DNA of 64,000 nucleotides, from the NCBI GenBank assembly GCA_026014725.1, contig JAOZHV010000029.1, positions 62,001 through 126,000 on the forward strand, in the 5' to 3' direction. Below the pieces are notes generated by a model. That model was not told where the DNA came from. It searched no databases and saw only the letters and a list, made by a program, of their open reading frames with translations. A program made the translations under genes and the position numbers. The first letter of the stretch is position 1. Each line of letters opens with the position of its first letter. Below are positions 8,059-63,414 of this stretch, in pieces. The DNA is from Candidatus Bathyarchaeota archaeon (GTDB taxonomy: Archaea > Thermoproteota > Bathyarchaeia > Bathyarchaeales > Bathycorpusculaceae).

Positions 8059-9414
8059 TTACGACTTTTTCTGTTTAGCGGGTTTACATTTGAATGGTTT
8101 TTCTTCGGGTGTTTTTAAGTGACCTGTTGCCGTTTGGGTCTTTTGTGGCAATTGCGTTTTTTCTTTTGAAATATTAAGCAAGGATGGCAAGTCAGATTGT
8201 TGCTTAACGAAAATGGCGCCTTCCGCTTTCAACTCAAGCATAAGTTGCGTGGCTTTTCCATCTGTAAAGTCTCGGCTTTCGATTGGAACCTCGTCAATGA
8301 CATATGTTGGGATACCCTGTTTGAGTGCTTCTCTTGCCGCTTCCAAGTTCCTGAGGTTGCCTAAACCAAACGGAACAGAAGTAATAACAACTATGCTTGC
8401 ATTTTTTATCATTTCTATATTTGCTGCGTGAGCTTTATCAGTTATCGGAGAAAAGGGCGCTTCAGTAACTGCAGGTATTTTTAACAATTCGCAGGTGTCA
8501 TAATCGGAATCTAACAAGTTTAAGACGCCTGCTGTGACAACATAGCCTTCATCAACGAGAGCTTTCATAACAAGTGTTCCTGTTCCAGCACCGCAAATTA
8601 CGTGTATAGCGCATTTCGTTGCTATTGATGACTTTTTGGGCGAGATGGGAATGACATAGAGTGAATTGGTAACAAAATTCTCCCTGACAATCGCATCAAC
8701 CTGAAAGACTTCGCGTATGTTCTCGGTTGTGAGAACATCTCCAATTTTGCCTGAGGCGTAAATTTTTCCGTTCTTGAGCATGATGGCTGTGTTACAGTAT
8801 CGTGCTGCCATGTTTAGGTCGTGGAAGACTGCTATAACAATCAAGTTATCCTTGACGCAGAGGCTTTTTATGAGGTCCATAACCTCAAGTTGATTAATTA
8901 TGTCTAGGTGAGTCATAGGTTCGTCTAAGAGCAGGATTTTTGGTTCCTGCGCCAATGCGCGGGCAATGATAACTCTTTGGCGTTCTCCGCCGCTCAGTTC
9001 ATGTATGGGTCTGTTAGCTAAGTTCCATGTGTTAGTTAGTTCCATTGCTTTTCTTGCAATTTGGACGTCTTTGGGGGATTCCATTTGAAATGGTCCCATG
9101 TGAGGGTTGCGACCCATCAAGACAACATCCAAAACGGAGAAGTTAAAGCCGACAGCGCTTTCTTGTGGAACAACAGCCATTGTCTTGGCAACATCCACGG
9201 GTTTTAGAGAATAAATATCGGATTTATCAAGTAGTATCGACCCGCCGTGAGGCTTTAGCACTCTACTTATACTTTTTAGTAATGTCGTTTTTCCCGAACC
9301 ATTGGGACCTAAAATTCCCACGAAATCGCCAGGCTTTACTTGCAGGGTTACGTCTGAAAGAACTTTTATTGAGCCGTAACGGCAATCTATTCCATTTACG
9401 TTAAGAGTTACCAT
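8059..9414 (-). CDS. btuD: Corrinoid ABC transporter ATPase with extra C-terminal domain
   Basis: 451 residues. Residues 1-260 are a FecCD-partner ABC ATPase: Walker A GPNGSGKTT, Q-loop VVPQES, signature LSGGERQRV, Walker B ILLLDEPMTHLD and AVFHDLNMAARYC. Residues about 265-420 form a second domain starting AIHVICGAGTGTLVMKALVDEGY, with Rossmann-like alternation and DSDYDTCELL and SVPFGLGNLRN segments, followed by a Lys/Pro-rich tail. BtuD/FhuC ATPases are normally about 250-270 residues, so this is a fusion. The gene is 9 bases downstream of btuC; with btuC and btuF it makes a complete importer. Cobalamin specificity is inferred from context. Confidence 0.88.
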   Translation of the reverse strand: MVTLNVNGIDCRYGSIKVLSDVTLQVKPGDFVGILGPNGSGKTTLLKSISRVLKPHGGSILLDKSDIYSLKPVDVAKTMAVVPQESAVGFNFSVLDVVLMGRNPHMGPFQMESPKDVQIARKAMELTNTWNLANRPIHELSGGERQRVIIARALAQEPKILLLDEPMTHLDIINQLEVMDLIKSLCVKDNLIVIAVFHDLNMAARYCNTAIMLKNGKIYASGKIGDVLTTENIREVFQVDAIVRENFVTNSLYVIPISPKKSSIATKCAIHVICGAGTGTLVMKALVDEGYVVTAGVLNLLDSDYDTCELLKIPAVTEAPFSPITDKAHAANIEMIKNASIVVITSVPFGLGNLRNLEAAREALKQGIPTYVIDEVPIESRDFTDGKATQLMLELKAEGAIFVKQQSDLPSLLNISKEKTQLPQKTQTATGHLKTPEEKPFKCKPAKQKKS

Positions 9415-9423
9415 GATTTTTGC

Positions 9424-10503
9424 CTACATCTTATAGCTTAATCTCTTTCTTCTCAAAAGGAAAATGAAGAATGGCCCGCCTGCAAGAGCAGTTATTACTC
9501 CTACTGGTAATTCCGAGGCTCCCGTTATAACTCGGGCTATTGAATCGCAGATTACAAGGAAGATGGCGCCAATGATTACTGACGTGGGCAAGAGAATTCT
9601 GTGGTCAGGTCCAACAGCAAGTCGTGTTATGTGTGGAATCATTAAGCCTACAAAACCAATAAGCCCACTTATCGATACCGCCGCAGCAGTCATCATTGAA
9701 CCTAAAGCTAAAATAATTTTTTTGGTTCGGGCTGTGTTCACGCCTAAGTGTTGAGCTGTGTCTTCGCCTAAAGCAATCATGTTTAGTTCTCTGCTGTAAA
9801 AGTAAGATAAAATTATTCCAACAAAGATAAATGGGAAAATCGCAAAAATGTCTGACCAAGTAATGTTTGATATTCCACCTATCAGCCAAAAAACAAGAGC
9901 GTGAAGTTTGGCGTTTTGGCTTGTTACTTGCAGGATGTGAAATATTGCAGAGAGAAAAATGGTGACGGCTATTCCTGAAAGTAGCAAGGTCATGTCTGAA
10001 ACTCTGCTACTAACTCTTGCAATATTATAGACGATGAAAATAGTGATTAAGCCTCCTACGAAAGCAGAAATCTGAACAATAGGTAGACCAAGCAAGATAA
10101 TACTTGAACCGAAAACGATGGCTAATCCAGCTCCCAATACTGAACCAGAAGAAACGCCTAGCACAAAGGGGTCAGCCATTGGATTTTTGAAAACTCCTTG
10201 ATAAAGCACTCCTGAAGCTGCTAATCCAGCGCCGATGATTGCACCAGCCAATATTCTTGGAAAGCGAATTTGCATAATAATAGCTTGATTAACTGTGCTA
10301 AATGAGGAAGGGTCAATGCTTCCGTTTAAGAACGGAATTTGATTGCCGATGATATTGAGAATTTCAGAAAAAGAAATAGGTGCAAAACCAATGTCTAAAG
10401 CCACTATGACTGTTATCACAAGCGCCGCAATAAGCAGTAGTAGAGTTACTTTCCACCGCTTTGAACGCTGCTGATAGGTATTTTCGACATTAGTTTGTGC
10501 CAT
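9424..10503 (-). CDS. btuC: Corrinoid ABC transporter permease
   Basis: 359-residue FecCD-family permease with about ten transmembrane helices. Diagnostic segments are RFPRILAGAIIGAGLAASG, QGVFKNPMADPFVLGVSSG, GEDTAQHLGVNT and the C-terminal GLMIPHITRLAVGPDHR. It starts 10 bases after btuF on the minus strand. The family also moves Fe-siderophores; the cobalamin assignment is based on the surrounding cbi genes. Confidence 0.92.
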   Translation of the reverse strand: MAQTNVENTYQQRSKRWKVTLLLLIAALVITVIVALDIGFAPISFSEILNIIGNQIPFLNGSIDPSSFSTVNQAIIMQIRFPRILAGAIIGAGLAASGVLYQGVFKNPMADPFVLGVSSGSVLGAGLAIVFGSSIILLGLPIVQISAFVGGLITIFIVYNIARVSSRVSDMTLLLSGIAVTIFLSAIFHILQVTSQNAKLHALVFWLIGGISNITWSDIFAIFPFIFVGIILSYFYSRELNMIALGEDTAQHLGVNTARTKKIILALGSMMTAAAVSISGLIGFVGLMIPHITRLAVGPDHRILLPTSVIIGAIFLVICDSIARVITGASELPVGVITALAGGPFFIFLLRRKRLSYKM

Positions 10504-15994: not shown

Positions 15995-17269
15995 ATGCCA
16001 ACTTTCCAACCCGTCCGCGGAATGCGAGACCTGACAGGACAAGAAGCCCAAATCTTCACCAACATCATAGCGAACGCCAGAAAAACCGCCACCCTCTACG
16101 GCTACAAAGAAGTCATCACTCCGCATGTTGAGCCGCTGGAGTTGCTCAGCGCCAAATCAGGCGAAGAAATCCGCCAACGCATGTTCATATTCAAAGACCT
16201 AGGCGAACGCCAAGTAGCACTACGCCCAGAATTCACAGCATCTATCGCACGCCTAGTAACCACAACGCTGAGAAACGAACCTAAACCGCTCAGATTGTTC
16301 TCGGTGGGCACAGTTTACCGTTATGATGAACCGCAGAAGGGCAGGTACAGAGAGTTTTGGCAATCAAACTACGAAATCATGGGCTCAGCAAAACCTGAAG
16401 CAGACGCAGAAATCATCCTGCTAACAAACACACTAATGACAGCGCTTGGTCTGCAGGGGTTTGCCTTCAAAATCGGGAACATCGGCATCCTGCGAGGCAT
16501 CCTAACCCAAGAAGGCATCGACGACAAGACGCAAAATGCAGTCTTCCAGCGCCTAGACAAAAAAGAAACCGACGCCGCACTCAAACTTTTGGACTCACAG
16601 AAAGCCCGCCAAATGATAGAGGGCTTAACACAAATCAAAGGCAAAAACTGGCAAGACACAGTAGAACAAATCAAAACCTACGTGGCAGGCTATGAAAAGG
16701 CTGAAGAAGCAGCAGACAACCTCGCCGAAACGCTCAAGCTCGTCACTGAGAGCGCAAACCTAACCATCACAGTGGAACCCGCGTTTGCCCGCGGCTTAGA
16801 ATACTACACAGGCATGATTTTTGAAGTATACATACCCGAACTCGAAATTGCACTGGGCGGCGGCGGAAGATACGACCGGCTAATCGAAACCTTCGGCGGC
16901 GAACCCACACCAGCAGTTGGCTGTGCACATGGAATCGACAGAGTCGCCATAGCACTACAAACACAAAAAACAGTCCTCGAAGAAAAAACAGGCAAAAAGG
17001 TCGTAGTAATCCCAATCACTGAGGCACTAAAAGCACAAGCCCTAAAAATCGCCCAACAACTACGCAACGCAGGCATCGTAGCGGAGTTCGAGGTCATGGG
17101 CAGAAAAATGGCAAAAGCCCTCGAAGATGCAGACAAACGGAAAATCAACTACGCAGTCATCGTCGGAGAGCGTGAACTAAAAGAAGACGCAGTCATGCTA
17201 AAAGACCTAGCGAACCGAACCCAAAACACCGTCGCCATCAAGGATTTGGTTGAGAAAATTAAGGGTTAA
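15995..17269 (+). CDS. hisS: Histidine--tRNA ligase
   Basis: 424-residue class II synthetase. The start FQPVRGMRDLTGQEA is the HisRS N-terminal motif; motif 2 is YRYDEPQKGRYREFWQ; histidine-specific segments are ARGLEYYTGMIFEVY and motif 3 LGGGGRYDRLIETFGG. The anticodon-binding domain occupies about residues 330-424. The class-defining Arg is present in VGCAHGIDRVAIAL. Ends 46 bases before the convergent glnA. Confidence 0.95.
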   Translation: MPTFQPVRGMRDLTGQEAQIFTNIIANARKTATLYGYKEVITPHVEPLELLSAKSGEEIRQRMFIFKDLGERQVALRPEFTASIARLVTTTLRNEPKPLRLFSVGTVYRYDEPQKGRYREFWQSNYEIMGSAKPEADAEIILLTNTLMTALGLQGFAFKIGNIGILRGILTQEGIDDKTQNAVFQRLDKKETDAALKLLDSQKARQMIEGLTQIKGKNWQDTVEQIKTYVAGYEKAEEAADNLAETLKLVTESANLTITVEPAFARGLEYYTGMIFEVYIPELEIALGGGGRYDRLIETFGGEPTPAVGCAHGIDRVAIALQTQKTVLEEKTGKKVVVIPITEALKAQALKIAQQLRNAGIVAEFEVMGRKMAKALEDADKRKINYAVIVGERELKEDAVMLKDLANRTQNTVAIKDLVEKIKG

Positions 17270-60897: not shown

Positions 60898-62847
60898 TTA
60901 GTTAGTGGCGATTACGCAATCGATATAGAGTGACGTTGGGTTTCCGTTATTGTAACCTGCGATGCATACGTATTTATAGGTAATTGTTGTTGACGCGACA
61001 TAGATAGTGTCAAGTGTTGAACTACTAATATACCAGTCTCTTACAAGGTACCAGTTGGAGCTGTCTTGCGATACGTAAACGAGTATGTGGCTGTTATACC
61101 CAACGCCAGAACGAGCATACAAGTAAATATAAGAGGTGCCGCTCATCGTACGAGACAACTCTCCGTTTATGGCTGCAGCGTCGCCGTAGTTTTGTGCAGA
61201 TATTCCTCCACATTGCCCATCTGGTGAGCTACCTGTAATGGCTGTCGGATAAATTGCTATGCCACTGCCGCTTATTGTCACCGCTGACGCAGTGATTGCA
61301 TAACCAGTATTGATATCGTTTATTCTAAAGTCATACGCGCCATTGCTTTTCATTCTGTCCGTCTCTGTGGTATAGATTTTAAGTCTCCAAAAACCGCTTG
61401 CACCCATATGTGCTCGATAGATTGTCTCGTCTTGACCAGTTGTGGTGCTTGCGCTTGTGGCAGCCAAAGAGCCGCTTGGGTCGTATAGCTGCAGATCAAA
61501 GTTTGCGTTACTTGGGACGACTAAATTTATCAAGAGAGCCTGATCTGTGACTGCATAGAATCTATACCAATCTTGCGAATCTATTCCATGTGGAAGCGGC
61601 AAATTACAGAGGCGCCCATAGTACGTCGTTCCCCTATTGACAAAGTAGGCGTCAGTAAAAGTATTTGGGGCATCAGCGTTGGTCGTTGCGTCATTATGTT
61701 CAGGGTAGAGATAGTGTGCTCCATTAAGGTCTCCCCATTCCAGACTTCTTCGGCTATTGTCCCAAGTAGCTTGGTCACGCATCGTTTGACCTGAAATGTC
61801 TACTCCATCCAACCCTATTGCATGACCAATTTCATGAGTCAGAGTGCTCTGTGCATCGTAGTCAAGAATCAAAGGAGTCGCTTCAGCATCTAAACACCAA
61901 TCATAAATGTCATTGAGTACTACATTTGTTTCTAGAATAGGTCCTGAGCCGCCGGCGTTCCAACTAAAGCCCGTGGCGTCTGCATATGCGAAACCAGTGA
62001 AGTCTGGTACCCAGCCAATGTTATTATGGTAATTCCTAACTGCGTACGCTTGCCAGTTATCGCCAGGGTTATGTAATCCCCCGTATGAGAAATCAACGCC
62101 GCAAAATGGAGCATTTTCCCATGTGGAAAAAGCCGCATGAATTGCAGTAAACTCATCGGTTCCGCTTATGTCGGGAGTGCCATCGGGATCTATTTCATAG
62201 GTCCATGGCATACTACTCCAAGGTATAAAGGTACCCCATGAAGTCATGGTCACTTCAAAGCCGTATCCGTCTGTTTCAGGAACTTCTGCCGTAGGTTGAG
62301 GGTCCAATGAAAATAGTGTTATCTTATCATCACCTTTGTTGTCGGACTCGACCACGTAAGGGATATAACCAGTGAGACTATTTGTCCTCTCTTGTATGAA
62401 AAACATTATGCTCATTCCTTTGCTTAGGCTAAATGTTGTCGGAGGTTGTATTGTATCGTTCTCAAAATTATGCCACTCTATGTCTACTCGGAGCGATAAA
62501 TCTTCAGTTTGCCCACCAAGATATTTTGCTGTTATTATCTGTTCCGCCTGAAGGTTTTCCACTAAAGGAACTTTAACCTGAATTTTAGCATATGTATAGA
62601 TCAATTGTCCCTCACTTATCTCTTCTAGTTTGGTGGTAGTTTCTTGGACTGTGCCGACGCCGACTTGAGTGGATTCATTCTTCCATCCGGTTAACAACTT
62701 GTTGCTATTTATAAGATCATTTGCCTTATTTGTTTCTTCCACCATTTGATTAGCAATAGATATCTGCGCCGATACTAACGATAGCCATATTGTTGAAAAT
62801 AGAAATAATGCGAGAAAAACTGCGCACGTTTTCTTTGACATTTTCAA
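60898..62847 (-). CDS. Secreted matrixin-like metalloprotease with PPC-type domain
   Basis: 649 residues. Signal peptide (about 1-27). Catalytic domain near residues 200-380 has TLTHEIGHAIGLDGVDISG, a zincin HExxHxxG helix, then a Met-turn-like QTMRDQATW. The third zinc ligand (His in matrixins, one residue after LD) is Gly here. Residues 390-500 form a PPC-like beta domain (SQDWYRFYAVTD, NFDLQLYDPSG); the last 150 residues a beta-sandwich. Proteolytic or degenerate surface enzyme; palindrome 62925-62942 lies in its upstream region. Confidence 0.8.
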   Translation of the reverse strand: MKMSKKTCAVFLALFLFSTIWLSLVSAQISIANQMVEETNKANDLINSNKLLTGWKNESTQVGVGTVQETTTKLEEISEGQLIYTYAKIQVKVPLVENLQAEQIITAKYLGGQTEDLSLRVDIEWHNFENDTIQPPTTFSLSKGMSIMFFIQERTNSLTGYIPYVVESDNKGDDKITLFSLDPQPTAEVPETDGYGFEVTMTSWGTFIPWSSMPWTYEIDPDGTPDISGTDEFTAIHAAFSTWENAPFCGVDFSYGGLHNPGDNWQAYAVRNYHNNIGWVPDFTGFAYADATGFSWNAGGSGPILETNVVLNDIYDWCLDAEATPLILDYDAQSTLTHEIGHAIGLDGVDISGQTMRDQATWDNSRRSLEWGDLNGAHYLYPEHNDATTNADAPNTFTDAYFVNRGTTYYGRLCNLPLPHGIDSQDWYRFYAVTDQALLINLVVPSNANFDLQLYDPSGSLAATSASTTTGQDETIYRAHMGASGFWRLKIYTTETDRMKSNGAYDFRINDINTGYAITASAVTISGSGIAIYPTAITGSSPDGQCGGISAQNYGDAAAINGELSRTMSGTSYIYLYARSGVGYNSHILVYVSQDSSNWYLVRDWYISSSTLDTIYVASTTITYKYVCIAGYNNGNPTSLYIDCVIATN

Positions 62848-62942: not shown

Positions 62943-63024
62943 TCCTTAGTACGACTCAAAACCTTTTAGAAGTTGATTTAAATAAAGCCTATTTTTGTTT
63001 AAAGGAAATGCCAGTCTTTATTAC

Positions 63025-63414
63025 CTAACATGATAGGCTGACTAAAAGCGTGACTGTTAAGGATGTTAAGAAAAGATATCCTATAGAGATTACTGTTGGT
63101 CTTACAAATGTCAGTTCAGCGAACAGAATTAATCCAGCTATTATACTGTAAATTAGATACTTGGGGATAAGTAAACGGCAAATTTTAACGTGGTTTTCTA
63201 ATACAAAACGTTTAATTGAATAACCGCCAAACTCCTTTTTGATTAATTGTATTCGTTCCAGCTAGGTCAAATGGTATTGCGCAACTGAGGGACTGCTAAG
63301 AGCAAGTTCTCGTTGTAGTTCGCGTATTCCAACCGGTTTTCCAGTTTTGACCATAAATCGATAAATTCTCAAGGTTCGTCCACTTAATGTATTATTTGAC
63401 GTTTTTCTGCCCAA
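63025..63414 (-). pseudogene. Winged-helix membrane regulator interrupted by in-frame TAG
   Basis: From TTG at 63414 the minus strand encodes MGRKTSNNTLSGRTLRIYRFMVK, GIRELQRELALSSPSVAQYHLT, a TAG at 63262-63264, then LERIQLIKKEFGGYSIKRF and two hydrophobic helices ending VSLSC at a second TAG (63025). The frame is intact on both sides, and the HTH would normally continue with a Lys or similar residue where TAG stands (AAG to TAG is one change). It is either a recently broken gene or a read-through/pyrrolysine case; other genes here use TAG as a normal stop, which favours decay. Confidence 0.7.

Follow-up and report, generated by a model that had tools for sequence, protein, structure and literature searches.

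Introduction

Pyrrolysine-recoded genes are represented by the methylamine methyltransferases of Methanosarcina and others. In these genes a TAG codon stands within a reading frame that is otherwise open. Passages in two papers report PylRS from some Bathyarchaeota (PMC5424206, PMC9499178), and for this reason the proposal of an earlier note, that an interrupted winged-helix gene of a Bathyarchaeota archaeon might be read through as pyrrolysine, was a reasonable one. The gene is located in a stretch of 64,000 nucleotides of contig JAOZHV010000029.1, hereafter called the window. Here, we compare this locus with the pyrrolysine-recoded genes and with its own relatives, an archaeal family of winged-helix/hydrophobic regulators for which we found no name.

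Results

Reading frame and domain content

The minus-strand frame running from 63414 to 63025 encodes 50 residues up to a first TAG (63264-63262) and then 78 residues up to a second TAG (63027-63025), and is otherwise open and protein-like across 128 codons. The features of the locus and its surroundings are the following:

63025..63414, minus strand: very probable pseudogene of a winged-helix/hydrophobic (membrane-like) regulator (stops, Pfam, relatives)
63262..63264, minus strand: in-frame TAG, in a Lys/Arg/Gln column of the relatives (codons of 50 fetched relatives)
63025..63027, minus strand: second premature TAG, where the aligned relatives have Glu (34 of 34)
62989..63024, minus strand: place expected for the C-terminal tail of the relatives (in frame VIKTGISFKQK, then TAG)
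60898..62847, minus strand: gene of a matrixin-like metalloprotease, 649 aa (Peptidase_M10, 28.3 bits, cut-off 24)

The candidate start codon is the TTG at 63414-63412. Its column holds Leu in 17 and Met in 3 of the 34 aligned relatives, and at loci L111 and L113 the matching column is a possible start codon. Pfam was searched with a copy of the frame in which Lys was substituted at the stops (P0001). A match to LexA_DNA_bind spans residues 17-54 of this copy with a score of 24.1 bits (cut-off 23.7), and further matches to HTH_20, DUF7347 and HVO_A0114 are below their cut-offs. The hydrophobic segments of the regulator family are probably membrane-spanning. The winged-helix, membrane-like regulator with an in-frame TAG described in the earlier note is thus real, as judged from the Pfam winged-helix matches and from relatives that align across the stop. 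No in-frame ATG, GTG or TTG was found between the two TAGs, and a split second gene restarting after the first TAG was therefore set aside.

The first TAG in comparison with relatives

A search of 100 genomes from the genus, family and order, the own genome included, identified homologs of the regulator (E≤0.001) in 93; the family is multi-copy, single genomes having as many as 12 matches. Identity to the query ranges from 35 to 58% across the 149 matches listed (query excluded), and the closest homolog among them, 58% identical and from within the genus, is uninterrupted. Fifty relatives were fetched for inspection of their codons, picked from the 150 listed matches apart from one, the single distant relative that a separate scan of genome contigs gave; two of the 50 are from the own genome. 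At the column of the first TAG, these relatives have Lys (45/50), Arg (4/50) or Gln (1/50), and none has a stop (0/50). Lys is accordingly the residue to be expected here, as the earlier note had proposed, and the comparison of orthologs at this codon, which it had also proposed, shows that the TAG is not shared. The best relatives align over the first TAG in one frame and with no stop within the match (L010 over query residues 1-125, L011 over 7-128), and the part after the TAG is therefore former coding sequence.

Five of the six regulator-family matches in the own genome are free of internal stops. Among the 150 matches listed, query included, five have internal stops, with all three kinds of stop codon present. 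The loci L070 (G010:C40), L071 (G002:C84) and L072 (G009:C123) are interrupted by TAG, TGA and TAA, respectively. For L026 (G052:C57) a TGA and a TAA are listed, yet the reading frame is open and the stops precede it. Repeated decay within the family, or errors, are possible sources of the stops at these four loci.

The second TAG and the C-terminal tail

A detailed alignment was made with 34 of the 50 fetched relatives, the 16 excluded being the distant subfamilies (L029-L039, L074), the shortened locus L028 and the internal-stop loci L070-L072. The terminal TAG falls on a column with Glu in all 34 aligned relatives, and 32 of them run exactly 10 residues past this Glu, while one is cut by a contig end and one is longer. 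Inspected by eye, 14 of the 16 excluded relatives have a Glu near the same place and two end earlier. Given the invariant Glu and the 10 further residues in the relatives, the end of the frame is a second premature stop. The earlier note had regarded the frame as intact after the first TAG; it is indeed open and former coding sequence, but the TAG that ends it is premature as well. The bases that follow the second TAG in frame encode VIKTGISFKQK before a further TAG, which is little like the TxKxWxKGxL of the relatives. The third frame of the tail region contains a K-x-W triplet as in the relatives. This triplet is too short to serve as evidence for a frameshift in the tail.

Signals of decay

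Of 38 columns conserved at ≥85%, the window sequence departs at eight, which places it third of 35 rows behind L089 (9/35) and L025 (8/37), both without internal stop. Three of the eight departures lie at the two stops and in the lost tail (one column), which inflates the count; five remain once these are removed, so that the number of departures alone is not telling. In a tree of 44 rows the end branch of the window sequence is 1.61, compared to a median of 0.31, and two rows free of internal stops have longer ones, L039 (2.01) and L074 (1.91). The long end branch is consistent with relaxed selection, though other rows share such length. As the 128 codons otherwise still read as open, protein-like sequence, the decay must be recent or slow.

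TAG as a stop codon in the window

The window has 56 non-overlapping ORFs of at least 100 aa, a set in which every ORF need not be a real gene, and of these 38 end in TAA, 11 in TGA and seven in TAG. Each of the seven proteins that end in TAG scores above the whole-protein cut-off of a Pfam family, though for one the margin is small (RHH_1, 20.9 vs 20.5). The domain match stops 4 to 15 residues short of the TAG in four (FecCD, NikR_C, PheRS beta and nitroreductase) and 39 residues ahead of it in CbiQ; in the two others it lies mid-protein. Past the TAG of one of these ORFs, the frame stays open for another 454 codons. The coordinates identify this ORF as the FecCD permease gene (9424-10503, minus strand) and the open stretch as a separate ABC ATPase gene (8059-9414, minus strand); a recoded FecCD-ATPase fusion was therefore rejected in favor of two neighbour genes that share a frame. 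TAG is a normal stop in the window, in line with the remark of the earlier note that other genes here end in this codon.

Search for pyrrolysine machinery

The genome is 97% complete and consists of 63 contigs. A search of it with the profile TIGR02367 (PylS C-terminal) gave no pylS above the cut-off of 178 bits; the best match, of 30.4 bits, is located at window positions 16097-16471, inside the gene of histidyl-tRNA synthetase (HisRS). At so permissive a threshold, TIGR02367 also matches in 13 of the 14 genomes used as controls, in one of them above the cut-off. At E≤1e-20, PylS was found in none of the 100 genomes (own included), and among the 14 controls only in Methanosarcina acetivorans. 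Of the biosynthesis genes pylBCD, the search covered PylD (TIGR03911) and gave no match in the own genome, whereas 10 of the 14 controls match, one over the cut-off.

The own genome has 48 matches to the tRNA family RF00005, to which anticodons were assigned with ARAGORN. The anticodon CUA was called in none of the 48, an incomplete inventory from which tRNA-Trp, tRNA-Tyr and several tRNA-Leu are missing. The tRNA-like gene at L106 (G000:C29:26996-27146) carries a long insert (intron-bearing), and its ARAGORN call, Arg TCT, is doubtful; this gene may account for one of the absent tRNAs. A search for the tRNA-Sec family yielded six hits, none of which reached the cut-off. Each coincides to within two bases with an RF00005 match, called as Ser, Cys, Lys, Lys, Arg and Ala, respectively, and the six hits are therefore not informative on amber decoding. 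A 10-base pattern for the anticodon region of tRNA-Pyl had no match in the window, the only sequence searched with it, and this result is likewise uninformative.

Genomic neighbourhood

The regulator locus lies upstream of the matrixin-like protease gene (60898-62847) on the same strand, and this protease is probably secreted. Six relatives' regions (L108-L113) were inspected by eye, and in each of them the first gene on the same strand past the intact regulator codes for a protein whose N-terminus resembles a signal peptide or a membrane protein. In two of the six regions, the C-terminal domain of the window protease is found again downstream of the regulator. Its C-terminal ~120 residues share 36-39% identity with the proteins encoded at L109:6043-7635 and L110:9340-9897, which are the products of the second gene after the regulator in L109 and of the first in L110. 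This suggests a C-terminal module shared near members of the regulator family. A comparison of the six regions with 33 ORFs surrounding the window gene gave partial matches for two other window neighbours, one in L109 and one in L112, and orthology of the exact locus did not emerge. As a guess from this neighbourhood, intact members of the family might regulate the neighbouring gene for a surface, secreted or membrane protein.

Discussion

With both stops present at a single locus, with uninterrupted relatives, no pylS above cut-off, no pylD match and TAG in normal use as a stop, we consider it very probable that the locus is a pseudogene, a decayed member of a multi-copy family of small archaeal winged-helix regulators. 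It carries more than one inactivating change, namely the TAG at the Lys column, the TAG at the invariant Glu and the mismatched tail. Translation from the TTG start would halt after 50 residues, within the DNA-binding domain, the second nonsense codon removes the conserved C-terminal tail, of which the invariant Glu is the first residue, and the bases past it no longer encode this tail. The regulator copy has thus presumably lost its function. The plain pseudogene that the earlier note had named as an option is borne out by a further premature stop within the same gene and, more weakly, by the long end branch.

Counted against the pseudogene is the fact that all three stops in the frame are TAG, as read-through needs, although with only three codons this can be chance. 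Decoding of the TAG as pyrrolysine or some other residue, with a full-length regulator as the product, would also fit a frame that is open on both sides of the stop, a homology that spans it and a column where Lys is the usual residue, and the published passages on PylRS in some Bathyarchaeota lend it a precedent. It is nevertheless extremely unlikely in a genome this complete that has neither a pylS above cut-off nor a pylD match, in a set of 100 genomes without PylS at E≤1e-20, with CUA called in none of the tRNAs of the incomplete inventory and with ordinary genes ending in TAG. Nor would it restore the conserved C-terminus, which the bases past the second TAG do not supply. Pyrrolysine decoding, the option raised in the earlier note, was rejected on the results for pylS and pylD, the search for pylS that the note had proposed having led to HisRS. 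That an archaeon with no detectable pyrrolysine genes reads UAG in this regulator by means of a putative suppressor tRNA is just as improbable; if true, it would be a new case of decoding, and the evidence is strongly opposed to it.

An error of sequencing, assembly or strain mixing in an intact gene has somewhat more in its favor, the genome being in 63 contigs and apparently of metagenomic origin, and is still very unlikely: two separate nonsense codons and a mismatched tail would call for several errors within 0.4 kb, and the long end branch fits decay. We give hardly any credence to the 50-residue N-terminal fragment as a functional small protein. It keeps most of the conserved winged-helix residues and most of the LexA_DNA_bind match, but it has neither the rest of the domain nor the hydrophobic part, and a stop at its end is found in 0 of 50 relatives. 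Gene decay therefore remains our preferred reading, and the interpretation in the earlier note is, as a whole, partly supported.

The significance of the locus is mostly one of annotation. It is an example of how a lone in-frame amber codon is best explained by decay of the gene when the archaeon has no detectable pyl genes and the gene has a second lesion, and it cautions that the end of an interrupted frame is not necessarily the natural end of the gene.

Compared to known systems, the locus shares with the pyrrolysine-recoded genes the in-frame TAG in an otherwise open frame. Unlike them, it is not a methyltransferase by Pfam, it resides in a genome with no pylS above cut-off and no match to pylD, and its TAG is absent from the relatives (0/50; the closest among the matches listed is 58% identical). 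To the archaeal winged-helix/hydrophobic regulators it is homologous, with 35-58% identity in the matches listed, and the window copy differs from this family by its two in-frame stops and the loss of the conserved C-terminal tail.
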